Part shown: piece by piece, positions 18,966 to 32,213 of the stretch
Layout: each line of letters starts with the position of its first letter
Numbering within the stretch: position 1 is the stretch's first letter
Assembly: GCA_039802005.1 (NCBI GenBank)
Contig: JBDRVV010000026.1
Span: 1-33,589 of the forward strand
Direction: 5' to 3'
Source of the DNA: a candidate division WOR-3 bacterium
GTDB taxonomy: Bacteria > Hydrothermota > Tepidihabitantia > SM23-42 > JAOAFX01
DNA length: 33,589 nucleotides
Made by a program: the position numbers and the translations under genes
The notes under the pieces: generated by a model
The model's database searches: none
Seen by the model: only the letters and a program-made list of their open reading frames with translations
What the model was told of the DNA's origin: nothing

Positions 18966-19750
18966 TCATTGTTAACTACAATTCAAGCCATGCGTTAAAG
19001 CGATGTTTAAAAAGTATCATTGAAAAGAAACTGAATTTGCCTTGTGAAATAATTATTATTGATAATAATTCAACAATACCAATTAGAAATAGAATTAAAG
19101 AATTTGAAGAATTGATAAATATTCATTTGATAGATAATAAAAAAAATCTTGGCTATGCACGGGCAGTTAATCAGGGAATAAAAATTGCCCGAGGCAAATA
19201 TGTCTTAATCATCAATCCGGATATATTAATAACCGCTGGGGCAATAGAAAAGATGATTGATTTTCTTGAGAATAAAGAAAATATTGGTATTATTGCTCCT
19301 CAGTTATTGAATTTTGATAATTCTGTTCAATATTCTTGCTTTCGGTTTCCAAAATTCTGGACACCTTTTATTAGAAGAACTTTTTTAAAAAATTTTTCTT
19401 TTGGTAAAAGAGAAGTGGAGAGATATTTAATGCTTGATTTTGACCACAAGGAGACGAAAGAAGTAGATTGGGTTCTGGGGGCAGCAATGTTGTTAAAAAA
19501 ATCTTTAATTAAAAAAATCGGCTTGTTGGATGAAAAATTTTTTCTTTATTTTGAAGATGTTGACTGGTGTCGTCGTTTCCATAGTCAGGGCTTTAAAATC
19601 ATTTATTTTCCTGAGTCAAAATTTTATCATCAATATGCACGTTATTCTGCCGATAAATATTTGTTTTCTTTTATATTTAATAAATATTTCTGGTTTCATA
19701 CAATAAGTTGCATAAAATACTTTAAAAAATGGCATAAAATCAGCACTTGA
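18953..19750 (+). CDS. GT2 family glycosyltransferase
   Basis: A 265-residue GT-A glycosyltransferase with SIIIVNYNSS at the N-terminus, IIIDNNS (35-41), LGYARAVNQGI (66-76) and the metal-binding INPD (87-90). FEDVDWCRR is the conserved ED-containing acceptor/base motif, and the C-terminus HQYARYS is like that of rhamnosyltransferases. It is the only envelope-sugar gene in this housekeeping run and overlaps rsmG by 13 bases, so it is part of that operon rather than of the polysaccharide cluster. Donor, acceptor and product are unknown. The next gene's promoter begins inside its stop codon region. Confidence 0.85.
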   Translation: MLSIIIVNYNSSHALKRCLKSIIEKKLNLPCEIIIIDNNSTIPIRNRIKEFEELINIHLIDNKKNLGYARAVNQGIKIARGKYVLIINPDILITAGAIEKMIDFLENKENIGIIAPQLLNFDNSVQYSCFRFPKFWTPFIRRTFLKNFSFGKREVERYLMLDFDHKETKEVDWVLGAAMLLKKSLIKKIGLLDEKFFLYFEDVDWCRRFHSQGFKIIYFPESKFYHQYARYSADKYLFSFIFNKYFWFHTISCIKYFKKWHKIST

Positions 19751-19774
19751 CATTGAAAGTATTTTGAATAAAAT
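19747..19774 (+). promoter_or_regulatory. Sigma70-type promoter of the uncharacterised membrane module (leaderless)
   Basis: Perfect TTGACA (19747-19752, overlapping the upstream stop codon), 16 bases, TAAAAT (19769-19774), then 6 bases to ATG 19781. No Shine-Dalgarno site. Predicts that the nine-gene module starts as a leaderless transcript. Confidence 0.7.
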
Positions 19775-19780
19775 TATTAA

Positions 19781-20860
19781 ATGTTTTTAGTACTCTTCAT
19801 TATTATATATAATATAGATTTAAGGGCATTTGATGTGCCCAATGATGATGGTTCAAGCATTATTTTGAAATGGCAAAGTGATGAGATTTTTCAGTCATTT
19901 GAGATATTTAGAAGTCTTAATGCGGGGGAAAATTTTGAAAAGATTGGTGAGGTAAATGGCATTGAGGCGGATTTCCGTGATTCCAATTTGAAACCCAATA
20001 ATGATTATTATTATAAAGTTTCGGGTAAGCGGGATAGCATTTTGATCTTTTCCAATATTGCCGGACCAGTAAAACCCGTTGTTCAATATTTTAATCTGTC
20101 GCGTCTGCCCATGGCAATATGTATAATTATACTTTTTGCATCCGTTCTTTTCTATATAAGGCGTGCCCGAAAAGGTAAAAAATTATTCATCAGGAAGATA
20201 CCTGCATTGAATGCAATTGAAGAGGCTATCGGCAGGGCAACCGAAATGGGTAAGCCGGTTTTATATGTGCCGGGTATAATGGATATTGATGACCCGCAGA
20301 CTATTGCCTCAATGAGCATTCTGGCAAGGGTTGCGGAAAAAACTGCCGAATACGGAACACCCCTGTATGTGCCGACGAGTCGTTCAATGGCAATGACAAT
20401 GGCACAACAGGTGGTAAAGGAATCGGCAACCCGGGTAGGCCGTCCTGACTGGTATAATCCAGACAACATCAGATATATAACTGATGACCAGTTTGCCTAT
20501 GTTTCTGCAGTTGATGGAATTATGGTTCGTGAAAGGCCGGCAACCAATCTTTATCTTGGAACATTTTATGCAGAATCCCTTATCCTTGCCGAGACCGGAC
20601 ATTCAACCGGTGCGGTTCAGATTGCGGGAACAGCAATGCCTGACCAATTGCCTTTCTTTGTTGCGGCCTGTGATTTTACTTTGCTCGGAGAAGAATTGTA
20701 TGCAGCAAGTGCCTATCTTTCACAGGAGCCGATACAACTTGGTTCACTGAAGGGACAGGACTTCGGTAAACTGATATTCATCGCGGTCATTGTTATTGGT
20801 GTTATAAGCCAGATATTTAATTGGCAGTTTTTCATCAACCTATTCAATACAATAGAATGA
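19781..20860 (+). CDS. Membrane protein: FN3-like domain, TM helix, DUF6754-like soluble domain, C-terminal TM
   Basis: A 359-residue protein of unknown function. An N-terminal signal or anchor (about 1-16) is followed by a fibronectin-III-like domain (about 18-98). A membrane helix is at about 110-127 and is followed by basic residues. A soluble alpha/beta domain spans about 140-330, and a final helix is at about 334-350. The soluble part (KPVLYVPGIMDIDDPQT ... IAGTAMPDQLPFFVAACD) resembles what I recall as DUF6754; this was not searched. The motif P-x-Q-x-P-x9-L-L-G-x-[EG]-x3-A-A recurs in the protein at 21705, suggesting a shared fold. With the FN3 part outside, the soluble domain would be cytoplasmic. 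It overlaps the next gene by ATGA. Confidence 0.7.
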   Translation: MFLVLFIIIYNIDLRAFDVPNDDGSSIILKWQSDEIFQSFEIFRSLNAGENFEKIGEVNGIEADFRDSNLKPNNDYYYKVSGKRDSILIFSNIAGPVKPVVQYFNLSRLPMAICIIILFASVLFYIRRARKGKKLFIRKIPALNAIEEAIGRATEMGKPVLYVPGIMDIDDPQTIASMSILARVAEKTAEYGTPLYVPTSRSMAMTMAQQVVKESATRVGRPDWYNPDNIRYITDDQFAYVSAVDGIMVRERPATNLYLGTFYAESLILAETGHSTGAVQIAGTAMPDQLPFFVAACDFTLLGEELYAASAYLSQEPIQLGSLKGQDFGKLIFIAVIVIGVISQIFNWQFFINLFNTIE

Positions 20861-21483
20861 AGATAATTATACCCTTAATGATTGTTTTCTTTTGCGGATT
20901 TTATATGCTCATAACCTTCTTTATTCCTGCCAAATTTGCCCAGGATAGTTCGCAATTACTCCAGTTATGGTACCAGGGTGTTGCCGCATTTTTTGTCTTT
21001 ATCGGCATTTTCAATTTGATAAAAATAAATATTGATAAGATTCAGAGAAAATTGAGAGATTGGCAGTACAGTATAATCCTTTTGTTCTTTCTTGGGGTAA
21101 TGCTTGGCGCGGGCTTTATTGGCGGAAGGGATTCAAAAATATTTTTATATTTCTTTGAAAATTTTCAAGTGCCACTTGGTGCGACGATGTTTTCTTTGCT
21201 GGCATTTTTTGTCGCATCAGCTTCGTTCCGGGCATTCAGGGCAAAGACCCCGGAAGCAACATTGCTTTTGATTGCAGCAGTGATTGTAATGATCGGCAGG
21301 ATTCCGATAGGATATTTAATATGGAATAAATTTCCGGACCTTGTAGAATGGATTATGCAGGTTCCCAATACTGCGGCGAAAAGAGGGATATTGTTTGGCA
21401 TTGACCTCGGTTTGATTTCAATGGCGCTCAGAGTGCTTTTAGGCATTGAAAGAAGTTATATGGGGGGAGGCGGTGAGAAATAG
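20857..21483 (+). CDS. Uncharacterised multi-TM membrane protein (partner of the DUF6754-like protein)
   Basis: A 208-residue integral membrane protein with about six hydrophobic segments (near residues 3-22, 35-52, 70-88, 100-122, 133-153 and 175-193). It ends with a glycine-rich GGGGEK tail. No enzyme motif is visible. I chose ATG 20857 because it overlaps the upstream stop (ATGA); the earlier in-frame TTG at 20821 would extend into the preceding gene. The coupling suggests it forms a complex with the protein encoded at 19781. The same arrangement (TM-anchored soluble protein then multi-TM protein, ATGA overlap) is repeated at 21705/22523. Confidence 0.75.
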   Translation: MKIIIPLMIVFFCGFYMLITFFIPAKFAQDSSQLLQLWYQGVAAFFVFIGIFNLIKINIDKIQRKLRDWQYSIILLFFLGVMLGAGFIGGRDSKIFLYFFENFQVPLGATMFSLLAFFVASASFRAFRAKTPEATLLLIAAVIVMIGRIPIGYLIWNKFPDLVEWIMQVPNTAAKRGILFGIDLGLISMALRVLLGIERSYMGGGGEK

Positions 21484-21599
21484 AAATTTGAAATACGAAA
21501 TGCGAAGTTCTAAACTTCAATATGGAAACAAAGGCGATAAGAATTCATGGAAGGGCGGTGTGAAATGGGTTTATGGAGGAAGAGTAGTTGAATGTCCTA

Positions 21600-21671
21600 C
21601 GGTTGCGAAATGCGTTTCGTTGAAAGTTAGTTGTAATTCGTTAAGCGGAGCCGTTTCGCTTTTCGCAACCG
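21600..21671. repeat. Inverted repeat in the 221-base gap of the membrane module
   Basis: CGGTTGCGAAA (21600-21610) is the exact reverse complement of TTTCGCAACCG (21661-21671), with 50 bases between them that contain further partial pairing (GCG/CGC) and a small nested hairpin CGAAA-TGCG-TTTCG at 21606-21619. The remainder of the gap 21484-21704 starts with GAAATTTGAAATACGAAATGCG, a low-complexity motif style common in intergenic repeats, and holds no gene I can support. No T-run follows, so it is not a standard terminator. Confidence 0.6.
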
Positions 21672-21704
21672 ATAGACGTCAGACGAATTTACGGATGGCA
21701 TTTT

Positions 21705-22526
21705 ATGAAAATATTTGACCACCTCGCTCATCTTGACCGTAGAATCATATTTCTACTTGTAGCATTGGCAGTTATTATTCCGATGGTTGCGCCTTTAAAT
21801 TTACCGGTGGATATTACAAAGCCAGTTAAGAATGTTTATAATAAAGTTGAATCTTTACCTCCGGGTTCAATTGTGCTTATCTCAACTGATTATGACCCGG
21901 GCAGTGAGGCAGAATTATACCCTGCGACCGAGGCATTTATTGAGCATTGTTTTCGTAAAGATTTAAAAATATATATGATGGGTCTCTGGCCTGCGGGCAG
22001 CGAACTGGGCAATATCGCATTAAATAAAATTGCACAATCTTATAACAAAAGATATGGTGAAGATTATATCAATGTTGGCTATCGTCCTGGTGGAGCAGTA
22101 ATGCTATTGAGTTTGGGTAGGAATTTTTCTGATGTGATAAAGGTTGATTATCAGGGAACTCCGATAGATTCACTTCCGTTGGGGAGGAGAGTGAAATCAG
22201 CGAAGGATTTATCAATGGTTATGACATTTTCGGCTGGTGACCCGGGTATACTACACTGGATATTATATTTCCATGCGCGGTACGGCGTAACAATCTGCGG
22301 TGCCACTACTGCAATTATGGCACCACAGCAATATCCTTATTTGAGCTCTGGACAATTGACTGGACTTTTAGGTGGATTGAAAGGTGCAGCCGAGTATGAG
22401 ACACTTGTTGATAGAAAAGGAAGAGGACTAAGGGGTATGGATTCTCAATCAATTGTACACCTGCTCCTTGTAGGTTTTATTGTGCTTGGCAATGTGATAC
22501 TGTTATATCAGAGGAGAAAAAAATGA
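21705..22526 (+). CDS. Uncharacterised protein: N-terminal TM, soluble alpha/beta domain, C-terminal TM
   Basis: A 273-residue protein of unknown function. A helix at about 13-30 follows FDHLAHLDRR, and a soluble domain covers about 35-245. A last helix (about 247-266) precedes a basic RRKK tail. The soluble part opens with GSIVLISTDYDPGSEAEL, a Rossmann-like strand and acidic loop. Later it has APQQYPYLSSGQLTGLLGGL, which parallels MPDQLPFFVAACDFTLLGEE of the protein at 19781 (P-x-Q-x-P ... L-L-G). I take the two to be distant paralogues; this is by eye only. Proteins of this type recur in environmental bacteria as hypothetical proteins as far as I recall. Stop overlaps the next start (ATGA). 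Confidence 0.72.
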   Translation: MKIFDHLAHLDRRIIFLLVALAVIIPMVAPLNLPVDITKPVKNVYNKVESLPPGSIVLISTDYDPGSEAELYPATEAFIEHCFRKDLKIYMMGLWPAGSELGNIALNKIAQSYNKRYGEDYINVGYRPGGAVMLLSLGRNFSDVIKVDYQGTPIDSLPLGRRVKSAKDLSMVMTFSAGDPGILHWILYFHARYGVTICGATTAIMAPQQYPYLSSGQLTGLLGGLKGAAEYETLVDRKGRGLRGMDSQSIVHLLLVGFIVLGNVILLYQRRKK

Positions 22527-23140
22527 TCAATGCAATTGGAATATGGATTGCTGCACTCTTAACCCTTGCGATTTATTCGTTTCTTTATAAAGATAATCCA
22601 TTCTATAAAATTGCCGAAAATATATTTGTTGGTGTCTCTGCTGGTTATTGGGCAGTTGTGCTCTGGTATGATTTTGCCTGGCCCAATCTATTTGAGCCCT
22701 TTTTTACAAAAGGGCAGTGGTACAACATATTTCCAATTTTTATCGGACTTTTGATGTTTGCACCACTCATTCCAAAAATTTCATGGATGATACGTATTCC
22801 CCTGACATTTACCATGGGTGTTGCAATGGCGGTTTCCATTACCCAGATTGTCCAGGGTGATATCTTCCCCCAATTACAGGCAACATTTCTGCCGCTAAAG
22901 GGTATTCCTGTTTTTAATGTAATATCAAACATTTTGATTATAGGTGGAGTTATCTTTACCCTTACCTATTTTTATTTTTCAAAAGAGCATAAAGGGGCAC
23001 TCGGCATTGGTGCGAAGATTGGCATATGGTTTATGATGATATCGTTTGGCGCATCATTTGGATACACAATCATGGCGCGTGTCTCTTTATTTATTGGCAG
23101 GATTTATTTTCTTTTGCATAACTGGCTGGGAGTGATTTAA
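22523..23140 (+). CDS. Uncharacterised six-TM membrane protein
   Basis: A 205-residue integral membrane protein with about six helices (near 4-20, 28-50, 68-85, 93-110, 130-152 and 165-198). Conserved-looking motifs are NPFYKIAENIFVGVSAGYW near the N-terminus and GASFGYTIMARVSLFIGRI near the C-terminus. No known transporter or enzyme signature is visible. It is coupled to the anchored protein before it (ATGA) and shares one base with the PATAN gene after it (TAATG), so the module is translated as a chain. Its role is unknown. Confidence 0.72.
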   Translation: MINAIGIWIAALLTLAIYSFLYKDNPFYKIAENIFVGVSAGYWAVVLWYDFAWPNLFEPFFTKGQWYNIFPIFIGLLMFAPLIPKISWMIRIPLTFTMGVAMAVSITQIVQGDIFPQLQATFLPLKGIPVFNVISNILIIGGVIFTLTYFYFSKEHKGALGIGAKIGIWFMMISFGASFGYTIMARVSLFIGRIYFLLHNWLGVI

Positions 23141-23976
23141 TGGCAGATTTTGAGATAAATTTAAAGGAATTCAATCTGTCTGATGTATTACAATTTCTTG
23201 TACAATTGAAAAAGACTGGTGTGGTAAGGGTAAGTGGTGAATTGAGTGGCGAAGTGTATTTACGTGACGGGCATATTGTCCATGCCACAGATGGAACAGA
23301 GAAAGGTTTTGAATCATTATTAAATCTTTCTCTTGTTCAGCTTGAAAAGGCCGTGTTTGAATCAGGGGTAAGAGCAACAGAACAGACTATTTCCGAAGAT
23401 GTTGGCAAGTTAAATGAAAATATTGAACGGCGGCGGGTTGAATTTGAAACGATAAAAGACCGATTACCCCCAAGGGATGCAGTTCTGGCAAAATCAACAA
23501 AGGAATTGCCTTCTGCAGTGGCATTACGCCGCACAGACTGGCAGGTTCTGGCAATGGTTGATGGTAAAAGGACAATAAATGAAATAATTGCCCAGTCCAA
23601 ACTTGGTGGGTATGAGACCATAAAGACCATAGTCTGGCTTAAAGAACAGGGATTGGTTTATGACCCCAAAGAAGCAGAAAGGTTGATGGCGGGATTGTTA
23701 AGATATTTTAACGCCTTATTCAAGGTTTTTGGAAAAAATGGGCTAAACTGGTTTAGGAGATGGTCAGAGTTGAACCCTGAAAATCAAATCCTTGGTGCTT
23801 CAATAAATGTTAATGAAGAAACTTTTGAGATATCGGTTCAGAATCCATTGTCCCAGGAGCAGATTGATAAATTCAGAAAGAGTTTTGATGAATTCGTCCG
23901 GTCTGAGGGTCCACAAATCTATGGAAAGTTATTATTCAAGAAAAAACTTGAAGAATTGGTTGCAGAATTGAAATAA
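23140..23976 (+). CDS. DUF4388/PATAN-domain protein with winged-helix-like middle region
   Basis: A 278-residue cytoplasmic protein. The N-terminal ~95 residues fit PATAN (DUF4388): FNLSDVLQFLVQLKKTGVVRV, then GEVYLRDGHIVHATDGTEKG and FESLLNLSL. PATAN domains are known as protein-interaction modules in two-component and gliding-type signalling systems. Residues ~130-175 (TDWQVLAMVDGKRTINEIIAQ ... IKTIVWLKEQGLVYDP) resemble the winged-helix segment often attached to PATAN. The C-terminal ~90 residues are not recognised. Neighbouring LC7-like proteins support a signalling or scaffold function, which is inference. ATG shares its A with the preceding stop. Confidence 0.75.
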   Translation: MADFEINLKEFNLSDVLQFLVQLKKTGVVRVSGELSGEVYLRDGHIVHATDGTEKGFESLLNLSLVQLEKAVFESGVRATEQTISEDVGKLNENIERRRVEFETIKDRLPPRDAVLAKSTKELPSAVALRRTDWQVLAMVDGKRTINEIIAQSKLGGYETIKTIVWLKEQGLVYDPKEAERLMAGLLRYFNALFKVFGKNGLNWFRRWSELNPENQILGASINVNEETFEISVQNPLSQEQIDKFRKSFDEFVRSEGPQIYGKLLFKKKLEELVAELK

Positions 23977-23989
23977 AAAGGAGCGGGTG

Positions 23990-24763
23990 ATGGATGTACT
24001 GGATAAGATTGCCGGAATCATAAACTATGCGGTGGTCAATGCCGAGGACGGTTCAATTGAAGAGGTGAAGGGTTCATCAACTTCACCCCTTGGCGATCTC
24101 ACCGCATTCTTTTCATCAGCAGCAGAGGTTATAAAGAATACACTCAATCTGGGAGATATAAATTTTGTTTCTTTATGTTATGGTGCGAATCGTTTGATTA
24201 TCTTCCTTCATAATGGTAAGTATATTGGGATAGAGGTTGAAAGAGAACAGGATCCTAAAGAATTTATACTGCGTGTGCAGGAGCAACTTATCAAACCTGA
24301 AGAAACCAGAGAAGCAGTAAAGGAAGAAGTTAAGGAAGAAATAAAGGTAGAAAAACCTGAAGAGAAAATAGTTGAGGAAAAGGTTGAAGAAAAAGTTGTT
24401 GAAGAAGTAAAACCACCGCCTCCGCCCAAGGTTGAGGTTCAATTACCGAGGAGTATTAGTTCAAAACTAATGCAAATCAATCTTCTCGTTGAAGAATTCG
24501 GAAGCGGTGGCAAAAAGTCGCACTGGATCGAAATTCTCAATCAGGGGCTTGGTATCCTTGCAACGGATATCCTTCCCATGGTTGGAATTATTGGTGAAAA
24601 AATGGAATTCAAACAGACCCCGCCTTCTGAAAAAGAGGATGAGATTGTCCAGATACTGAGAACTCTCATAGATTTTCTCGTTAAAAAAGCCGTGGAGGAA
24701 ATGGGTTCTTCGCAGGCAAGGGTGAAGGTTCAGGCGGTTATTGAAAAGATGAAACAGGTATAG
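23990..24763 (+). CDS. Roadblock/LC7-like domain protein with Lys/Glu-rich linker
   Basis: A 257-residue soluble protein. Residues ~1-95 show the roadblock/LC7 pattern: helix (MDVLDKIAGI), strand with acidic turn (YAVVNAEDGSIEE), a helix (LGDLTAFFSSAAEVIKNTL), then strands (FVSLCYGANRLIIFLHNGKYIGIEV). A ~45-residue Lys/Glu-rich spacer ending in PPPPPK separates it from a helical C-terminal domain (about 155-257). Confidence in the fold is moderate since it rests on pattern only. LC7-type proteins commonly act with small GTPases; none is seen nearby. AAAGGAG and the six-base spacing favour ATG 23990 over the in-frame GTG at 23987. Confidence 0.62.
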   Translation: MDVLDKIAGIINYAVVNAEDGSIEEVKGSSTSPLGDLTAFFSSAAEVIKNTLNLGDINFVSLCYGANRLIIFLHNGKYIGIEVEREQDPKEFILRVQEQLIKPEETREAVKEEVKEEIKVEKPEEKIVEEKVEEKVVEEVKPPPPPKVEVQLPRSISSKLMQINLLVEEFGSGGKKSHWIEILNQGLGILATDILPMVGIIGEKMEFKQTPPSEKEDEIVQILRTLIDFLVKKAVEEMGSSQARVKVQAVIEKMKQV

Positions 24764-24771
24764 GAGGAGGC

Positions 24772-25359
24772 ATGGTGGATGAGTTATTGAATAAGATAGA
24801 AGACCGCGGTTTGGGTTTACCATTCATTTCACAAAAAGATGGTGAGACAATAACTTCAAAAACGGGTGAGAAACAAAAGCAAAAATTCTCCCAAACTGCA
24901 ACCGTGGTCTTTGAAACAATCAGTGCATTGGGTGGTATAAAGATTGATACTTTAGAGATAGTAGGTAGTAATCAGAGCCTACTATTTGATATTGGAGAAG
25001 GTGATCTTATAGGGCATATTTATGCTACAAGCCAGAAAGGTGTCCTGGATAGTATCTACAATGCCATAAAAGAGATAAGAACGCATAAAAAGACTGAGGG
25101 TGTCGAGGAAGAAAAACCAAAAGAAAAATTCGGACCCGAATTTCTTGACCAGTTGAAATCAATCGTTCAGGATTATCTCGGTGATTTTGCTGATAGGGTA
25201 TTTCAGAACCAACTCAAGGCACAGAGGATAAAAGCAGAAGAGCTCTACGAAGAGGATATTAGAAGATTTATTTTCGCTTTAGGCAAGGCAGCAGGAATGA
25301 TTATCGGACCAACCAAAGGAAAAGATTTGACCAATAAATTGCTGGCAAAATTAAAATAG
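24772..25359 (+). CDS. Second LC7-like domain protein
   Basis: A 195-residue soluble protein. The first half again resembles a roadblock/LC7 unit: FSQTATVVFETISALG, then IDTLEIVGSNQSLLFDIGEG, then DLIGHIYATSQKGVLDSIYN. A charged KEKPK-type linker and a helical tail (about 125-195, FLDQLKSIVQDYLGDFADR onward) follow, the same organisation as the upstream gene but shorter. The two are probably diverged relatives and may pair, as LC7 proteins form dimers. AGGAGG sits on the upstream stop codon, four bases before the ATG. No function can be assigned beyond the context of the module. Confidence 0.58.
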   Translation: MVDELLNKIEDRGLGLPFISQKDGETITSKTGEKQKQKFSQTATVVFETISALGGIKIDTLEIVGSNQSLLFDIGEGDLIGHIYATSQKGVLDSIYNAIKEIRTHKKTEGVEEEKPKEKFGPEFLDQLKSIVQDYLGDFADRVFQNQLKAQRIKAEELYEEDIRRFIFALGKAAGMIIGPTKGKDLTNKLLAKLK

Positions 25360-25367
25360 GAGGTTTT

Positions 25368-25739
25368 ATGGAATTTGTTTTATTTACTGCACCATTCGGG
25401 ATTGAAGAATCTACCTATCAATCCCTGGCAGTAATTCCCAATTATATTCTGGTCTTGGGTGCACTATTATTGTGGCTTGCTTTTATATTCTTAGGGATAA
25501 TTGCCCGAAGATATGAAATAGTGCTGGGCGAAAAAACGAACTGGCAGTTTATGATTATTGCGCCTACGGGCATTCTTCTATTTGCTATAATCCAATTGAT
25601 ATTCTGCGGCATTGGCGGTAAAATGATGTTGCCTAAAGGAGGCATTAACTATCTTGCTTATGGTCTGTTTTTTATTTCTGGCATTCTCTCGCTTGTGGCA
25701 AATTTAAGGTTTTATGGTGTCACCAAGGGAAAGCAATAA
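25368..25739 (+). CDS. Small 3-TM membrane protein of unknown function
   Basis: A 123-residue protein with three clear hydrophobic helices (about 25-48, 61-83 and 90-112). No conserved catalytic motif is visible. It is preceded by AGGAGG and lies 8 bases after the LC7-like gene, so it belongs to the same transcript. It shares size and topology with the next gene, although the two sequences do not obviously align. Confidence 0.68.
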   Translation: MEFVLFTAPFGIEESTYQSLAVIPNYILVLGALLLWLAFIFLGIIARRYEIVLGEKTNWQFMIIAPTGILLFAIIQLIFCGIGGKMMLPKGGINYLAYGLFFISGILSLVANLRFYGVTKGKQ

Positions 25740-25757
25740 AAAATTTCAGGAGGTTTT

Positions 25758-26108
25758 ATGAGGCCTGACATAATTGCAGAAATAATCTTTATGGTGGCAA
25801 TTCTACTTGCCATTGTTTCGTTAATAATTTTCGGGATTATTCTTAAAAGGCTTTTAACTCTTATCGGTGGTAAGGGAATATGGATTTTCCCGATAATCGG
25901 AAGCATATTCCTGATTGCGGTAGCGGGATTCCATATCTACAGAATGATTTTTTATTTCCCGCTTTTGAGTGTTGCAGGACCGGGTGATTTGTTTGATTTA
26001 ATCGTCGGTTCTCTCAGACTCGCAAGATATGAGAGTTTCCTTTTTCTTGGTGCGGGTCTTTTCCCACTTATTGGCGGGGTTCTTTATTACTCGGCAAGTT
26101 CTAAATGA
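25758..26108 (+). CDS. Small 3-TM membrane protein of unknown function
   Basis: A 116-residue protein with helices at about 6-27, 35-57 and 90-110. The loop between the last two holds GPGDLFDLIVGSLRLARYES. No family recognised. Preceded by AGGAGG; last gene of the module before the TonB operon's own promoter begins four bases after its stop. Confidence 0.68.
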   Translation: MRPDIIAEIIFMVAILLAIVSLIIFGIILKRLLTLIGGKGIWIFPIIGSIFLIAVAGFHIYRMIFYFPLLSVAGPGDLFDLIVGSLRLARYESFLFLGAGLFPLIGGVLYYSASSK

Positions 26109-26111
26109 CCC

Positions 26112-26139
26112 TTGACATTAATGCCATTTTCATTATAAT
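26112..26139 (+). promoter_or_regulatory. Consensus sigma70 promoter of the exbB-exbD-exbD-tonB operon
   Basis: Perfect TTGACA (26112-26117), 16 bases, perfect TATAAT (26134-26139). A short leader with AAAGGAGG (26151-26158) precedes ATG 26167, so this is a leadered message. No Fur-box-like palindrome was evident around it. Confidence 0.82.
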
Positions 26140-26166: not shown

Positions 26167-26790
26167 ATGGTTAAAGAATTTGCAATAGGTGGAAGCGTGA
26201 TGTGGCTTTTGTTGATCTGTATCATCCTGGGTCTGGCGATTATTATTGAAAGGTTATTTTCTTTGTTGTTTAAGATAAGATTAAATCCCAAGAGCTTTAT
26301 GGAAAAACTCATTCCAACGATTGATGCCCAGGGTGTTGATGCGGGGATTGCTTTATGTGATCAGACATCATCACCTGCAGCAAAGATTGCAAAGGCAATT
26401 CTTGAAAAGGCAGATAAAGGTAAGGATGCAATGGAAGAGGTTGCGGCACGGGCAGCAGCAGTTGAACTTGCATTCCTTGATCGGGGAATGGCACTCCTTG
26501 CTGGTTTGACGACCGTTGCACCATTTTTAGGGTTCTTGGGAACGGTTACCGGAATGATCCGTGCATTTGCCGCAATCGCTGCCGCAGGAGAGGTTGAACC
26601 AACAATCGTTGCCAGTGGTATCTCTGAGGCATTGATAACGACAAAATGGGGTCTTTTGATTGCAACACCCCTGGCAATTCTCCATATTTTATTCTCAGGC
26701 AAGGTGGATGGTTACACAAAAGATATGGAGGAAGTTGCTGCAGGTTTGATTGATTATTTACTTGAGCATTATCAGAAAAGGAAAAAATAG
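26167..26790 (+). CDS. exbB: ExbB/TolQ/MotA-family proton channel protein
   Basis: A 207-residue inner-membrane protein of the TonB motor. One helix near the N-terminus (about 10-28), a cytoplasmic domain (about 32-105), then the conserved two-helix core (about 108-135 and 155-178). The core includes GLTTVAPFLGFLGTVTGMI and SGISEALITTKWGLLIATPLA, the signature of ExbB/TolQ. It conducts protons with ExbD to energise TonB. TolQ is the alternative but the adjacent TonB and receptor genes favour ExbB. The stop is directly followed by the first exbD start. Confidence 0.93.
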   Translation: MVKEFAIGGSVMWLLLICIILGLAIIIERLFSLLFKIRLNPKSFMEKLIPTIDAQGVDAGIALCDQTSSPAAKIAKAILEKADKGKDAMEEVAARAAAVELAFLDRGMALLAGLTTVAPFLGFLGTVTGMIRAFAAIAAAGEVEPTIVASGISEALITTKWGLLIATPLAILHILFSGKVDGYTKDMEEVAAGLIDYLLEHYQKRKK

Positions 26791-27255
26791 ATGGAGTTAA
26801 GGCAGAAGAAAAAAATAATTCCCAACATTCCTACTGCCTCAATGGGTGACATTGCTTTTTTGATAATTATCTTCTTTATGACTACCACAGTTTTTACAAG
26901 AGAAAAGGGAATAAAGATGCTCCTTCCTGAAAAATCACAGCAGGAAACAAAGGTCAAACCCGAAAATGTCGTTTCAATTCTGATAAATCCCGAAGGTGCA
27001 CTCAGGCTCAAGGCTTCAGGTTATGATGGTTTAGACATTTCTCCACAAAGTTATTCAGAGGTGCGGAGAATTGTTGAAGAGAAACTCTTAGAAAGAGACA
27101 CCTTACTGGTCGTTTCATTAAAGACAAGCAAGGATGCAAGGTATCAGGCAATGATTGCGGTTCTTGACCAAATAAAGTTATGCCGGGTTATCACCCAGGA
27201 TGGCAGGGAATTGAGGGCAAATAAAATTAGTTTAATCCCAACGAGTGAGGAATAA
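26791..27255 (+). CDS. exbD: ExbD/TolR-family protein, first copy
   Basis: A 154-residue bitopic protein. Its single helix (about 17-36) follows IPTASMGDIAFLIIIFFM, in which D20 matches the proton-carrying aspartate of ExbD. A periplasmic domain follows, with VVSILINPEGALRL and YQAMIAVLDQIKLC as the usual strand and helix signatures. It starts at the base after the exbB stop and shares one base with the second exbD (TAATG). The C-terminal ~20 residues (GRELRANKISLIPTSEE) extend beyond the core. Confidence 0.9.
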   Translation: MELRQKKKIIPNIPTASMGDIAFLIIIFFMTTTVFTREKGIKMLLPEKSQQETKVKPENVVSILINPEGALRLKASGYDGLDISPQSYSEVRRIVEEKLLERDTLLVVSLKTSKDARYQAMIAVLDQIKLCRVITQDGRELRANKISLIPTSEE

Positions 27256-27671
27256 TGCGTAAGAGTATAATTAGAAGATTTACAAGAACTCCAGTGATAC
27301 CTACTGCTTCAACTGCTGATGTTGCATTCCTTCTGATTCTCTTTTTTATGGTTACTACCGTTTTCCGCGCTACAACCCTTAATTTAAAGCTCACTCTGCC
27401 CAAGGCAAAATCAACCGAGAGAATATTAATCCGCAGAAATATTACCCATATCTTTATTGATAATAACGGGCGGGTATTCATTGATGATAGTCTGGTGCCC
27501 AAGGAAAGGGTGAGTACGAGGATTGCACCGAAGATAGCAGAAAATTCAGAACTCGTGACTATATTGAATATTCATGAAGATATTGATTATGGGACAGTTG
27601 ATCTGGTTCTTGACCAATTGAAAGAGGCAAGGGCATTTAAAATAACATTCGCCACTGAATTTGGAGGTTAA
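27255..27671 (+). CDS. exbD: ExbD/TolR-family protein, second copy
   Basis: A 138-residue paralogue of the preceding protein. VIPTASTADVAFLLILFFMV carries the equivalent aspartate (D22), followed by a periplasmic domain with THIFIDNNGRVFID and VDLVLDQLKEARAF. Both copies keep the key aspartate, so both should be functional. Tandem exbD genes are known in several Bacteroidota-like and other phyla and may form a heteromeric ExbD pair. Starts with a one-base overlap. Confidence 0.9.
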   Translation: MRKSIIRRFTRTPVIPTASTADVAFLLILFFMVTTVFRATTLNLKLTLPKAKSTERILIRRNITHIFIDNNGRVFIDDSLVPKERVSTRIAPKIAENSELVTILNIHEDIDYGTVDLVLDQLKEARAFKITFATEFGG

Positions 27672-27672
27672 A

Positions 27673-28281
27673 ATGCGCGACCATAAATTGATGTACGGGG
27701 TCTATTTCCGGACCGGAATGTTGCTGGGAATAATCATTTTAATACTATTATTCCTTTTTGTTCCATACGCAGAGGTCGAACCATACAAATTAAGGAAGGA
27801 AATTGTGACGATGGTGGAGCAGATTTCTGCAGAGATAGAGAAGTATGAGGAACCACCACCGGTGGAAAGGCCCAAGGTCGCAGTTGCTGCAGCGGCAACA
27901 GAAGTTGCCGAAGAAGCAGTGGAAACAATTGCTGCAACCGAATTCAGGGAAGATATAATCAGAACCCAGCCCACTGGTCCAGAGATAGAGGTCATTCCTT
28001 ATGCAAAGGTAGAAGTGAAACCCAAACCAATTTCAATCCCAAAACCTGATTATCCCGAACTTGCAAGAAAAGCAGGAATAGAAGGAAAAGCGATTGTTGA
28101 GGCGATTGTAGATACAGATGGCAGTGTGATAGAAGCAAAAATATTTAAATCAAGTGGCAATCCAATGCTTGATGAGGCAGCAATTGCTGCGGCAAGAAGG
28201 GCAAAATTTACTCCGGCAAAACAAAGGGATATGTTTGTACGAGTTAGAGTTAACATACCTTTTGATTTTAAATTGCAGTAA
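27673..28281 (+). CDS. tonB: TonB energy-transducing protein
   Basis: A 202-residue protein. The N-terminal membrane anchor is at about 14-31. A Glu/Pro- and Ala/Glu-rich periplasmic linker (about 35-115, with EPPPVERPK and several KPK/IPKP units) follows. The C-terminal TonB domain (about 120-202) holds PDYPELARKAGIEGKAIVEA and NPMLDEAAIAAARRAKFTPA. It would contact the TonB box of receptors such as the one at 29445. GGAGGT four bases before ATG 27673 fixes the start; an in-frame TTG at 27661 would put the Shine-Dalgarno site within the gene. Confidence 0.9.
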   Translation: MRDHKLMYGVYFRTGMLLGIIILILLFLFVPYAEVEPYKLRKEIVTMVEQISAEIEKYEEPPPVERPKVAVAAAATEVAEEAVETIAATEFREDIIRTQPTGPEIEVIPYAKVEVKPKPISIPKPDYPELARKAGIEGKAIVEAIVDTDGSVIEAKIFKSSGNPMLDEAAIAAARRAKFTPAKQRDMFVRVRVNIPFDFKLQ

Positions 28282-28398: not shown

Positions 28399-29433
28399 AT
28401 GAAAAGGTTGAATTGGCTAAGCCTATTGGCAATCGTTGGATTGATATTTATAAGTTGTGGAAATGAACCACCAGAGGAATTTTACAATGGGACACCCGAA
28501 GATGATTCACTTATTAACACATTGCTTAATGGTTATCCTGAGTTCCTTAAGACTGACGATATTTTCGTAAATACTTACATTCCTGTTACTCTTGCTCCTG
28601 TTTCATTTCCGGTCTCTGATTCTTATTTCAAAGGTGAATCAGTTATTGTAAAGCAGCATGTTGATAGTCTACGTGATAATGTTGCTTCAAGTTCCCGTTT
28701 TAAGGACCTCTGGTACACGAAAGATACAACCTGTACTGCGTATCTTTATGATACATTTAATGTAATACGGGAGGTCCATTATGACCTATTATACAAAGGT
28801 TATTATTTCTGGCAGGGTGACACAGTTAAGAAACTTGATACAGTAATAGTTGAGACTGGTGGTGGTTATTATTCTTACGATACAATAACTGTTGAAGGAT
28901 TGCGCCATCTATATGTTGAGCCAGTAAAAGAGAAGGTATGGAATGAAGAATTAGGCGATTCCGTCTGGAAGGTTAAAGAACCGAGAGAATGGAAGTTAAA
29001 AAGAATATCCTATGGCAATTATGGGTTGCCTAATCGTGGTGCGAGCATTCCATATATTTACTACGTAATAATTACTTCAAACAATACCGGAGAGGTTGAC
29101 ACAATCTGGGCATCAAATACGGATACGCTTTATCAACATCATGCGATGAATCGTTTTTGCCATATTGACTCGCTCTTGGATTATGATAATGGAGATTCAT
29201 TAACAATAACCATTGTACTCGGCGGCACAATTACGAGTGATCTCTGCAGTTTCTTTGCGGCTCAGGATGGAAAGAAGGTTCATCTTCCTAACGGTTCAGG
29301 AAAAATTCAAATTACGGGTTCCGGAGTAAAGAATCTTGTTTTTGAGGTAATTGTGAACGATGGCTTCTATTATGTGAAACCTGCCAGTCCACTATTAGCA
29401 AGATTCTGGCTCATACCCGTAAGGGTTAAGTAA
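28399..29433 (+). CDS. Predicted lipoprotein of unknown function
   Basis: A 344-residue exported protein. The signal peptide ends in a lipobox (LIFISC, C20), so it should be lipid-anchored on the periplasmic side of a membrane or at the surface. The mature part is rich in Tyr, Asp and Thr and looks beta-stranded throughout (for instance a G-G-G-Y-Y-S-Y-D-T-I-T-V stretch near 155). No named domain was recognised. It sits 11 bases upstream of a TonB-dependent receptor in the same transcript, so it may be a ligand-binding or assembly partner of the receptor, by analogy with SusD-like pairs. It does not resemble SusD (no TPR-like helices), so this remains inference. Confidence 0.75.
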   Translation: MKRLNWLSLLAIVGLIFISCGNEPPEEFYNGTPEDDSLINTLLNGYPEFLKTDDIFVNTYIPVTLAPVSFPVSDSYFKGESVIVKQHVDSLRDNVASSSRFKDLWYTKDTTCTAYLYDTFNVIREVHYDLLYKGYYFWQGDTVKKLDTVIVETGGGYYSYDTITVEGLRHLYVEPVKEKVWNEELGDSVWKVKEPREWKLKRISYGNYGLPNRGASIPYIYYVIITSNNTGEVDTIWASNTDTLYQHHAMNRFCHIDSLLDYDNGDSLTITIVLGGTITSDLCSFFAAQDGKKVHLPNGSGKIQITGSGVKNLVFEVIVNDGFYYVKPASPLLARFWLIPVRVK

Positions 29434-29444
29434 GGAGGTGTGCG

Positions 29445-32213
29445 ATGAAGAAACTTTGGGCGTTAATCCTTGTCGGTGCATTGTTGTTCGGTGCCGAATA
29501 CGGCAAGATCACCGGCAGGGTAAGAGACGCTGAGACCGGCGAAGCATTGATCGGTGCTGATGTCATTGTTGAAGGAACAGAACTTGGTGCCGCGACTGAT
29601 GAAAAGGGTGAATTTGTGGTTCTCTATGTGCCAGCAGGAACATACAGCGTTACCGCTTCCTACCTCGGTTACGACCCATTTACCTATGCCCAAGTGGTTG
29701 TCAATGCTGACCAGACTACCACATTGAATTTCCGTTTGAAACCGACGGTTATTGAGGTTGAAAAAGTTACGGTTGTTGCTGAAAGACCACCGATTGTAGT
29801 TTCACAGACCCAGAGTGGTCATTCAGTTACTTCCAAGGATATATCTCGTTTACCTGTTACTACAATCAATCAGGTGGTTACACTGCAGGCTGGTGTTTCA
29901 ACATCCAATCTGGGAACTCATATTCGTGGTGGAAGAACTGACGAAGTCATATATTATGTTGATGGTATACAGACAAGGGTTCCTCATACCGGTGCCCAAT
30001 CAACCCAGATAAACGCCTCAGCGGTAGAAGAAGTTACGGTTGTCAGCGGTGGTTTTGATGCAGAATATGGAGATGCACTCAGCGGTGTCATCAACATCGT
30101 TACAAAAGAAGGTGGTACAAAACCTTCAGGCAGTTTCCGCTATCTTACTGATGAGGTCTTCTTTGTAGATAATCTTAAAGATAAATTGAATTTCGGTTAT
30201 AACTTCTATGATTTATCACTTGGTGGACCTGTACCTGCGGTTCAAAGATTGAGATACTTTTTATCAGGTGAGTTGACTTTAACCGATGCCTATAGGGAAG
30301 CGTTGTATAAAGTTCCGTCACCGAGAAATACCTATCGTGCCCAGGCAAGATTTTCCTATGGAATGCCTAACAATAAAGGAAAGGTTACTCTCAGCGGATT
30401 CAATTCTCGGGATCAGTATGTGACCTGGTCTTCTAAAAGTTTGAAATATTTCCAGAGAAGACCAATGAGCCGGACGAAGAATTACATTCTTTCAACAACG
30501 CTAAATTATATGTTCAGTGCCCAGACACTTCTCTCATTAAAAGCTGGCTTGACACATTATGACCGTGTCTATGGAACAAGGGATTATGAGTGGGAAGAAG
30601 AGAATAATCAAAAATGGTTCAATGATTATCGTATGAAGGCAGAACATGTGATTGAGTATCTTACTAAAGACCAATTACCACCAAAGGATGTGATCGTCGA
30701 TAGTGTAATGCAATATCATACTGAGTATACAAACCGCGATGTCCAGGCTTTGAGATACAATCCTTATGGAATTGAAGGAATGTATTATACCTATGGTGAT
30801 TATCGTGTATGGAGATACTGGCAAAATGATGATATTCAGATGCGTTTTGATATTTCCCATGCGGTTGGCAAAATCCATGAATTTAAGACCGGAATTGATT
30901 ATATCCAGTATAATCTAAAATACTACGACAATAACCTGCCCTGGGTTACCAACCCATTCTGGGATTATTATGAGCGGACTCCTTATAAATTAGCTGCTTA
31001 TGTCCAGGATAAAATGGATTTTGAAGGACTCATTGCCAGGGTTGGTCTGAGATTTGATTATTTTGACCCCAAGAGTGTTACTTATAAAGAGCCTAATAAT
31101 CCGAGGAATGATACACTTGTTGAGGCTGAAAAGAATTACAAGTTTTCACCGAGACTCGGTTTCTCCCTTCCAGTAACTGAAAGGATGAAATTCCGTTTCA
31201 ATTATGGTCATTATTTCCAGTTACCAGCACTTGATGATATGTACGGAACAACTGATACCGCAGTTATTAGGCTTGCACTCACCCGTGGAAATACCATTGT
31301 AGGAAATATATTTTTGAAACCGCAGAAGACAGTCCAGTATGAGGTCGGTATTGAGAACCAGTTTACCCAGGATGTTGTGATGGGATTCACTGCCTATTTC
31401 AAAGATGTCTATGACCTTTCCCAGATTCGTCAGGTGATTGCATTGCCAATGCCCTATTTCCAGTTCTTCAATGTTGACTATGGAAATATCAAAGGGTTTG
31501 AGTTAAGCATCCAGAAGACAATGTCTAATATGTGGGCAATGGGCTTGAGTTATACCCTTCAGTTTGCCAAAGGAACCGCTTCTTATGCGGGTGAATTCTA
31601 TTATGATTTCTATTATGGTGGAAATGACCCGATCACTGGCTTACCGCTCCAGCCACCGGTTATTGATTACTGGCTTGACTTTGATGAAAGAAATATTGTC
31701 AATGCAAATTTTGACCTTTCTCTACCTGAAGATTTTGTCTTCATTCCATTGCAGGGTTTCAGCTCTTCCCTTGTATTCTCGTTCCATTCAGGACAGCCAT
31801 ATACTCCACAGGACCTTAAGGGTAATAAAACTGGTGATGAGAATTCGGCAAGAATGCCGGGATACTGGAATGTTGATCTGAATGCGAGCAGGCCGATAAA
31901 GATTGGACCGGTAAAACTTAATATCAGCGCTTTGGTAAGAAACTTATTTAATACAAAACAAGTGAATAATGTTTATCCCACGACTGGTGAGCCTGACAAT
32001 CATGGTGATCCTGAACCAACAATTACACAATTCGGTTATATCACTATTGCATCAACCCGTTATTCGCCACAGGCAGATTATAATCATGATGGAATAGTTA
32101 CACCACCTGAGCAAAAGAAGGCATATATTGCAGCACGTAATGATTACTACCGTGACCCGACTTATTACAATGGTCCATTCAGGGTTCAAATTGGTGTAAG
32201 TTTAGGATTTTAA
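29445..32213 (+). CDS. TonB-dependent outer-membrane receptor with carboxypeptidase-regulatory-like N-terminal domain
   Basis: A 922-residue outer-membrane protein. Signal peptide (about 1-17), then a CarboxypepD_reg-like beta-sandwich (about 20-105, GKITGRVRDAETGEALIGAD), a plug domain (about 115-230, with IRGGRTDEVIYYVDGIQ and EYGDALSGVINIVTKEGG) and a 22-strand-type barrel to the C-terminus. It ends in alternating VQIGVSLGF as expected for barrel insertion. N-terminal domains of this type are frequent in SusC-like and related receptors. A canonical EF-hand loop is present at residues 878-889 (DYNHDGIVTPPE), probably in the last extracellular loop. Substrate unknown. AAGGAGGTG precedes the ATG; gene is adjacent to a lipoprotein. 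Confidence 0.9.
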   Translation: MKKLWALILVGALLFGAEYGKITGRVRDAETGEALIGADVIVEGTELGAATDEKGEFVVLYVPAGTYSVTASYLGYDPFTYAQVVVNADQTTTLNFRLKPTVIEVEKVTVVAERPPIVVSQTQSGHSVTSKDISRLPVTTINQVVTLQAGVSTSNLGTHIRGGRTDEVIYYVDGIQTRVPHTGAQSTQINASAVEEVTVVSGGFDAEYGDALSGVINIVTKEGGTKPSGSFRYLTDEVFFVDNLKDKLNFGYNFYDLSLGGPVPAVQRLRYFLSGELTLTDAYREALYKVPSPRNTYRAQARFSYGMPNNKGKVTLSGFNSRDQYVTWSSKSLKYFQRRPMSRTKNYILSTTLNYMFSAQTLLSLKAGLTHYDRVYGTRDYEWEEENNQKWFNDYRMKAEHVIEYLTKDQLPPKDVIVDSVMQYHTEYTNRDVQALRYNPYGIEGMYYTYGDYRVWRYWQNDDIQMRFDISHAVGKIHEFKTGIDYIQYNLKYYDNNLPWVTNPFWDYYERTPYKLAAYVQDKMDFEGLIARVGLRFDYFDPKSVTYKEPNNPRNDTLVEAEKNYKFSPRLGFSLPVTERMKFRFNYGHYFQLPALDDMYGTTDTAVIRLALTRGNTIVGNIFLKPQKTVQYEVGIENQFTQDVVMGFTAYFKDVYDLSQIRQVIALPMPYFQFFNVDYGNIKGFELSIQKTMSNMWAMGLSYTLQFAKGTASYAGEFYYDFYYGGNDPITGLPLQPPVIDYWLDFDERNIVNANFDLSLPEDFVFIPLQGFSSSLVFSFHSGQPYTPQDLKGNKTGDENSARMPGYWNVDLNASRPIKIGPVKLNISALVRNLFNTKQVNNVYPTTGEPDNHGDPEPTITQFGYITIASTRYSPQADYNHDGIVTPPEQKKAYIAARNDYYRDPTYYNGPFRVQIGVSLGF

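Follow-up and report, generated by a model that had tools for sequence, protein, structure and literature searches.

For cell-envelope machines that draw on an inner-membrane motor, the Ton system (ExbB-ExbD-TonB with a TonB-dependent receptor) provides the closest described reference, and an ExbB/TolQ subunit with two ExbD/TolR subunits, AglR, AglQ and AglS (PMC3169522), also forms the motor of the Myxococcus Agl-Glt gliding machinery, which has a TonB-like partner and a roadblock protein, MglB, in its control (PMC9481161). PATAN and roadblock proteins act in pilus and gliding control elsewhere (PMC7690835; PMC9481161). Two further families lie close to the locus considered here: the GlmL/MutL accessory ATPases of B12 mutases and ornithine degradation, and Pfam PF20539 (DUF6754), an entry without an ascribed function. 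Here, a locus in a candidate division WOR-3 bacterium, a member of an uncultured bacterial phylum (GenBank GCA_039802005.1), was compared with these systems. The window, the whole stretch of DNA analysed, comprises 33,589 nucleotides of contig JBDRVV010000026.1 and carries nine co-directional, uncharacterised genes (g1-g9; 19781-26108, + strand) in front of ExbB, ExbD and TonB genes. A preliminary description presented these as a single membrane-anchored signalling or scaffold module read from one promoter. The observation itself held, as all nine open reading frames are present and their arrangement is conserved across phyla far beyond chance; the interpretation was only partly supported, as the genes form two conserved sets rather than one nine-gene unit.

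The first set, module A, comprises g1-g4. g1 (19781-20860, +) is a clear member of DUF6754 (PF20539; 399.6 bits against a curated cut-off of 27, E 6e-120, positions 3-256 of 257), with a predicted signal/TM segment, an FN3 ectodomain, a TM segment, the conserved cytosolic DUF6754 domain and a C-terminal TM segment, the topology being assigned by positive-inside count. The FN3 exterior is supported by a profile search of the PDB and by Foldseek on the confident part of the g1 model. g2 (20857-21483, +) is a six-TM protein that follows g1 in nearly all core loci; g3 (21705-22526, +) has an alpha/beta domain, probably exterior, between two TM segments; g4 (22523-23140, +) is a five- to six-TM protein that ends the module. 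The second set, module B, begins with g5 (23140-23976, +), a PATAN/DUF4388 protein (PF14332; 43.9 bits, cut-off 25) with a winged-helix-like middle and a C-terminal domain shared with g6 (hhalign 96.9%, E 1.5e-10). g6 (23990-24763, +) has a roadblock/LC7-like N-terminal domain, a charged linker and the shared C-terminal domain. The LC7 assignment is supported but weak: roadblock chains dominate the best hits in a profile search of the PDB, with a best E of only 0.042, and PF03259 matched 2 of 24 members, with a best E of 0.0025. g7 (24772-25359, +), a cytosolic paralogue of g6 (hhalign 92.2%, E 6e-7 over 151 columns), had no direct match to PF03259. g8 (25368-25739, +) is a small three-TM protein, possibly with a fourth hydrophobic segment at its N-terminus, and its paralogue g9 (25758-26108, +; hhalign 89.6%, E 1.9e-6) is a small three-TM protein of 116 aa in nearly all genomes.

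Apart from g1 and g5, none of the nine proteins was assigned to a Pfam family, and g2, g3, g4, g8 and g9 match no curated family. Profile searches of the PDB with these five returned nothing useful, although each could still have a known fold. AlphaFold models of g1 and g3, built on five-row alignments restricted to window sequences and those of L035-L038 (our handles), were poor (pLDDT 52-53), such that no physical contact is supported; Foldseek found only FN3 for g1 and weak Rossmann-like hits for g3, none at E 0.001. Paralogy of the g1 and g3 soluble domains, suggested by a similar predicted order of strands and helices, gained no support from hhalign, and a g2/g4 relationship reached 26% at best and is not claimed. 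None of the nine proteins matched a PADLOC model of anti-phage defence at E 0.01.

The architecture of the locus differs in three respects from the preliminary description, which had proposed ATGA or TAATG overlaps and strong Shine-Dalgarno sites. Firstly, only g1/g2 and g3/g4 (ATGA) and g4/g5 (TAATG) overlap, the other gaps being 221 bp (g2/g3), 13, 8, 8 and 18 bp. Secondly, the promoter-like site before g1 (TTGACA-16-TAAAAT, 19747-19774, +; 11 of 12 consensus positions) overlaps the end of the upstream gene and ends 6 nt before the ATG, so g1 probably has no Shine-Dalgarno site and its mRNA is probably leaderless. Thirdly, full-consensus promoter-like sites also precede ExbB (26112-26139, +; 12 of 12 positions) and the lipoprotein gene (28284), so the Ton genes are probably transcribed separately as well. 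These comprise ExbB/TolQ (26167-26790, +; PF01618, E 1e-25), two ExbD/TolR proteins with an aspartate in the TM segment (26791-27255, +, MGDIAFL, PF02472, E 5e-18; 27255-27671, +, TADVAFL, PF02472, E 3e-20) and a TonB-family protein (27661-28281, +; PF03544, E 2e-23). They are followed by c18, a lipoprotein with a lipobox-like FISCGN motif and no known family (28399-29433, +), and a TonB-dependent receptor with an N-terminal carboxypeptidase-regulatory-like domain (29445-32213, +; PF00593, PF07715, PF13620).

Module A is an autonomous cassette. DUF6754 occurs in 140 of 147 WOR-3 genomes, in 1-7 copies per genome, and in 20 of 99 genomes of other phyla, usually in g1-g2-g3-g4 order; core order and near-zero spacing are kept in about 90 cassettes from WOR-3 and other phyla. 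g3 was found in 20 of 20 DUF6754 genomes outside the phylum and in 0 of 4 without it. The g1 ectodomain ranges from none to more than 400 aa, whilst the cytosolic domain is strikingly invariant. Two cytosolic proteins track the cassette in other phyla (compared by Fisher test): an undescribed protein of ~375 aa, here termed c31, in 18/20 genomes with DUF6754 against 0/79 without, and a long MutL/GlmL-like, ASKHA-type ATPase in 17/20 against 5/79. Gene order MutL-c31-g1-g2-g3-g4 occurs in several phyla, although in this genome both are encoded away from the locus. Such a parts list invites a transport reading, in which module A is itself a transporter or permease for the substrate that the receptor brings into the periplasm, energised by the MutL-like ATPase and with paralogues differing in substrate. 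Two multi-TM subunits, an exterior alpha/beta domain on g3 that could bind substrate, the multiple copies, the association with an ASKHA-type ATPase and the neighbouring receptor and lipoprotein are consistent with this view. However, g2 and g4 show no similarity to any transporter family, MutL proteins are not known as transport ATPases, the conserved domain of g1 is cytosolic and most copies have no receptor nearby, which leaves this reading unlikely.

Module B belongs genetically with the Ton genes. ExbB lies next to g9 in 53 of 63 loci and within five genes in four more, including loci without module A beside it, so the adjacency, left open in the preliminary description as a functional link or chance, is not chance. 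An arrangement of module A, LplA, module B, receptor and ExbB-ExbD-ExbD-TonB occurs in full in another phylum. It must be considered, however, that only about a third of WOR-3 genomes have module B (g8 in 53 of 147, mostly one copy) and that most module A copies lie among unrelated housekeeping genes of many kinds, without a functional theme, so module A does not need module B or the Ton motor beside it. That the genes might not be kept together in related genomes had been named beforehand as grounds for refutation; such separation is seen only at the g4|g5 joint, and there different core cassettes have re-occupied the same slot. In one order, two core types, X and Y, alternate upstream of the same module B: they form separate clades (100/100), whilst the module B tree rejects the same split (AU p 0.0011, four changes), with the breakpoint at g4|g5. 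Whole cassettes have thus been exchanged in place. This exchange, together with persistence of the arrangement in distinct phyla at low sequence identity, speaks against the possibility that A, B and the Ton genes are functionally separate and merely stayed adjacent by descent or co-transfer; the separate promoter-like site for ExbB and the occurrence of A and B alone would fit that possibility, which we regard as improbable. A pure signalling scaffold, in which module A senses the exterior and recruits PATAN/LC7 proteins without a link to energised transport, was the earlier proposal. The preliminary description was right in recognising a conserved, uncharacterised membrane assembly with an FN3 exterior and PATAN/LC7-type cytosolic partners, and the variable exterior and conserved interior of g1, the interaction-type domains and the lack of a known catalytic family among the nine fit its reading. 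Yet module B stays with ExbB/ExbD/TonB where module A is absent and no kinase, cyclase or response regulator is part of the set, making a pure scaffold unlikely.

Our preferred explanation, itself tentative, is that the two modules work as one envelope machine. Comparison establishes that module A is a self-contained, duplicated four-protein cassette co-occurring across phyla with the MutL-like ATPase and c31, that module B belongs genetically with ExbB-ExbD-ExbD-TonB and a receptor, and that different A cassettes have been exchanged before the same B module; all that concerns function, in the absence of functional data, is inference. In this view, module A would be an inner-membrane receptor or client complex whose FN3 exterior varies and whose DUF6754 domain hardly changes; its state would be passed to g5-g7 on the cytoplasmic face, and the paired g8-g9 would be accessory subunits at the ExbB/ExbD motor, so that the complex gates or positions the motor driving TonB on the outer-membrane receptor and lipoprotein. 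With lower confidence, the MutL-like ATPase and c31 may act as the ATP-using cytosolic partner common to all module A copies. A bolder reading, possible but less likely than not, is that module A with the ATPase and c31 is a previously undescribed, widespread six-protein machine (ATPase, adaptor and four membrane subunits with a variable exterior), docked repeatedly in some lineages onto a Ton motor through the PATAN/LC7/three-TM coupling module, such that the motor serves a client other than receptors alone. A gene set kept in nearly every genome of a phylum, repeated up to seven times and shared with other phyla, does something important, yet four of the six co-occurring families (g2, g3, g4, c31) match no curated family over their length, and literature searches on DUF6754, on WOR-3 with TonB and on GlmL/MutL found nothing pertinent and no mention of DUF6754. 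If module B couples the cassette to ExbB/ExbD/TonB, the Ton motor has dedicated regulators and an inner-membrane client that textbook systems lack. The exchange of cassettes provides a natural experiment, in which the parts that travel together (g1-g4) and those that stay (g5-g9 with the motor) define the putative interface.

Set against the described systems, g1 is a clear DUF6754 protein, but its constant neighbours g2-g4 and the link to c31 and MutL are not described in the literature searched, and module A by itself fits no kind that we could name. The ATPase that tracks it falls within Pfam MutL (PF13941, E 6e-128) but is about 600 aa rather than about 460, scores below the NCBIfam GlmL-family cut-offs (229 bits, equivalog cut-off 475) and in several phyla is encoded beside a membrane cassette rather than a mutase. 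The resemblance to the Agl-Glt machinery is by analogy: the window shares the make-up of one ExbB and two ExbD subunits, FN3 ectodomains could bind surfaces, and the window TonB has a weak match to the AgmX/PglI C-terminal domain. In a surface-motility or force-machine reading, ExbB-ExbD-ExbD with TonB and the roadblock/PATAN proteins would work like AglR-AglQ-AglS with Glt and MglB, and module A would be the adhesin complex that the motor drags. This force-machine reading remains doubtful, as ExbB-ExbD-ExbD-TonB next to a receptor is also an ordinary Ton arrangement, a receptor and the DUF6754 cassette are what is linked here, and, in a comparison that did not extend to the Glt proteins, no dedicated MglA or other GTPase partner for the LC7-like proteins was identified, PF00025 matching in nearly all WOR-3 genomes and not being specific to MglA. 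With the Ton system the locus shares ExbB, two ExbD proteins with the TM aspartate, the TonB C-terminal domain and the receptor, encoded together next to g9; it differs in carrying five extra genes, for a PATAN protein, two LC7-like proteins and two three-TM proteins, with no counterpart in the described Ton systems known to us, and an exchangeable four-gene membrane cassette in front.

Nine co-directional ORFs (g1–g9) fill positions 19781-26108. Of these, Pfam recognises only DUF6754 in g1 and DUF4388 (PATAN) in g5, and NCBIfam names none above cut-off. Read from the sequence, the junctions are ATGA at g1/g2 and g3/g4 and TAATG at g4/g5, with short gaps elsewhere, except for 221 bp between g2 and g3. 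This stretch (21484-21704) contains a 15-nt inverted repeat (21600-21614 / 21657-21671) and, as the close relatives at loci L037 and L064 have about 25-30 bp there, it looks like a recent insertion. Three near-perfect promoter-like sites of the TTGACA-16-TATAAT type, each with a 16-nt spacer, precede g1 (19747), ExbB (26112) and the lipoprotein gene (28284): the first matches 11 of 12 positions and ends 6 nt before the first ATG, such that the g1 mRNA is probably leaderless, whilst the other two are full consensus. The scan as a whole found no more sites than shuffled sequence, so only these three sites carry weight. The lipoprotein, which is of unknown family, is followed by a TonB-dependent receptor with a carboxypeptidase-regulatory-like domain (28399-32213 together), and the pair recurs after TonB in relatives.

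Stretches (loci, L) were collected from the genome's own copies, from WOR-3 families and from other phyla, and ORFs were called and searched with iterated profiles. Loci were sampled rather than exhaustively collected, and ORF starts in relatives were assigned mechanically. Two modules emerge: Firstly, g1-g2-g3-g4 (module A, the core) recur in that order in about 90 complete cassettes, mostly with gaps between -60 and 60 bp. DUF6754 is in 140 of 147 WOR-3 genomes, in one to seven copies, and in 20 of 99 genomes of other phyla, all 20 of which also have g3. The window's own genome has five DUF6754 copies and five g3 copies, and in genome G087 three core cassettes g1-g4 lie in a row on one strand with no module B nearby (L061). 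Very divergent cores, with long branches, occur at L109, L110 and L142, the last being the module-B-linked core of another phylum. Secondly, g5-g9 form module B: a g8 profile finds it in 53 of 147 WOR-3 genomes, nearly always as one copy, and a g9 profile finds it in a few genomes of other phyla. Of 63 g9 loci, with a few genomes sampled twice through overlapping loci, ExbB is the next gene in 53 and within five genes in four more. This holds where module A is absent from the stretch (L123-L126, L131, L169, L170) and where only g8-g9 remain (L128-L130). In one other phylum the order is g1 g2 g3 LplA g5-g9 receptor ExbB ExbD ExbD TonB, with g4 seen in its sister genome (L139, L142). A lipoate-protein ligase gene (PF21948) likewise sits between the core and g5 in several WOR-3 families and other phyla, and next to the core or ExbB where g5-g9 are missing (L049, L088, L118, L161, L162, L138, L139, L142, L087, L074). 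In the single-contig genome G076 the operon is split, with g1-g2 at about 1.40 Mb, g3-g8 at about 1.75 Mb and g9-ExbB-ExbD-ExbD-TonB at about 1.33 Mb (L057, L137 and L172).

In the window's family and a sister family, two core types, X (the window) and Y, occupy the same slot before g5, and per-gene identity changes abruptly at g4|g5. Loci L154-L156 carry X cores (65-77% to the window) with Y-side g5-g9 and, in L154 and L156, Y-side ExbB (94-95% identity to locus L059), whilst L146, L147, L149 and L157 carry Y cores with window-side g5-g9. On a 17-row core tree X and Y are separate clades (100/100); on the g5-g9+ExbB tree, holding X together costs 466 log units (AU p 0.0011) and the labels need four changes. 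The X and Y groups were named after seeing the core tree, a caveat that attaches to the test, but the size of the differences makes this unlikely to matter. Whole-cassette replacement in the slot is the simplest reading, and it argues that a core cassette is wanted there.

Hydropathy and positive-inside counts over alignments put the FN3 part of g1 outside and the DUF6754 domain inside. The g3 domain is probably outside; g2 has six TM segments, g4 about six, and g8 and g9 three each. The DUF6754 domain is unusually invariant, while the exterior ranges from none to more than 400 aa with FN3 repeats. Structure prediction, based on five sequences, gave only low-confidence models. g5 and g6 share a C-terminal domain, g6 and g7 are related over most of their length, and g8 and g9 are related; module B thus contains duplicated cytosolic and membrane pairs beside a duplicated ExbD. 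What the comparisons establish is the identity of the modules, their gene order and co-occurrence, the linkage to the Ton genes and the exchange of cassettes. The mechanism, in contrast, is inferred from sequence alone, and is held only tentatively: module A would be an inner-membrane receptor or client, g5-g7 its cytosolic couplers, and g8-g9 accessory subunits at the ExbB/ExbD motor, with a MutL-family ATPase and a second cytosolic protein, c31, as a shared ATP-using partner. Transport by module A itself, a gliding-like force machine and a pure signalling scaffold all remain possible alternatives.

The two putative cytosolic partners lie upstream of the core in several phyla: the MutL-family ATPase (PF13941, E 6e-128) and c31, a ~375-aa protein with lipoyl-like and KOW-like parts that are both weak matches. 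Outside WOR-3, c31 is in 18 of 20 DUF6754 genomes and 0 of 79 others, and MutL (E below 1e-30) is in 17 of 20 and 5 of 79, with Fisher p of 8e-18 and 5e-12, respectively; these p-values ignore phylogeny, though each outside genome is a different family. In the window's genome both are single and unlinked to the cores (C14, C22). In this genome and in a sister family (L175 and L194), c31 lies near another PATAN (DUF4388) protein and, in L175, beside a gene that resembles a carboxyltransferase alpha subunit. Compared with GlmL, the ATPase is longer, and it scores below the GlmL equivalog cut-off.
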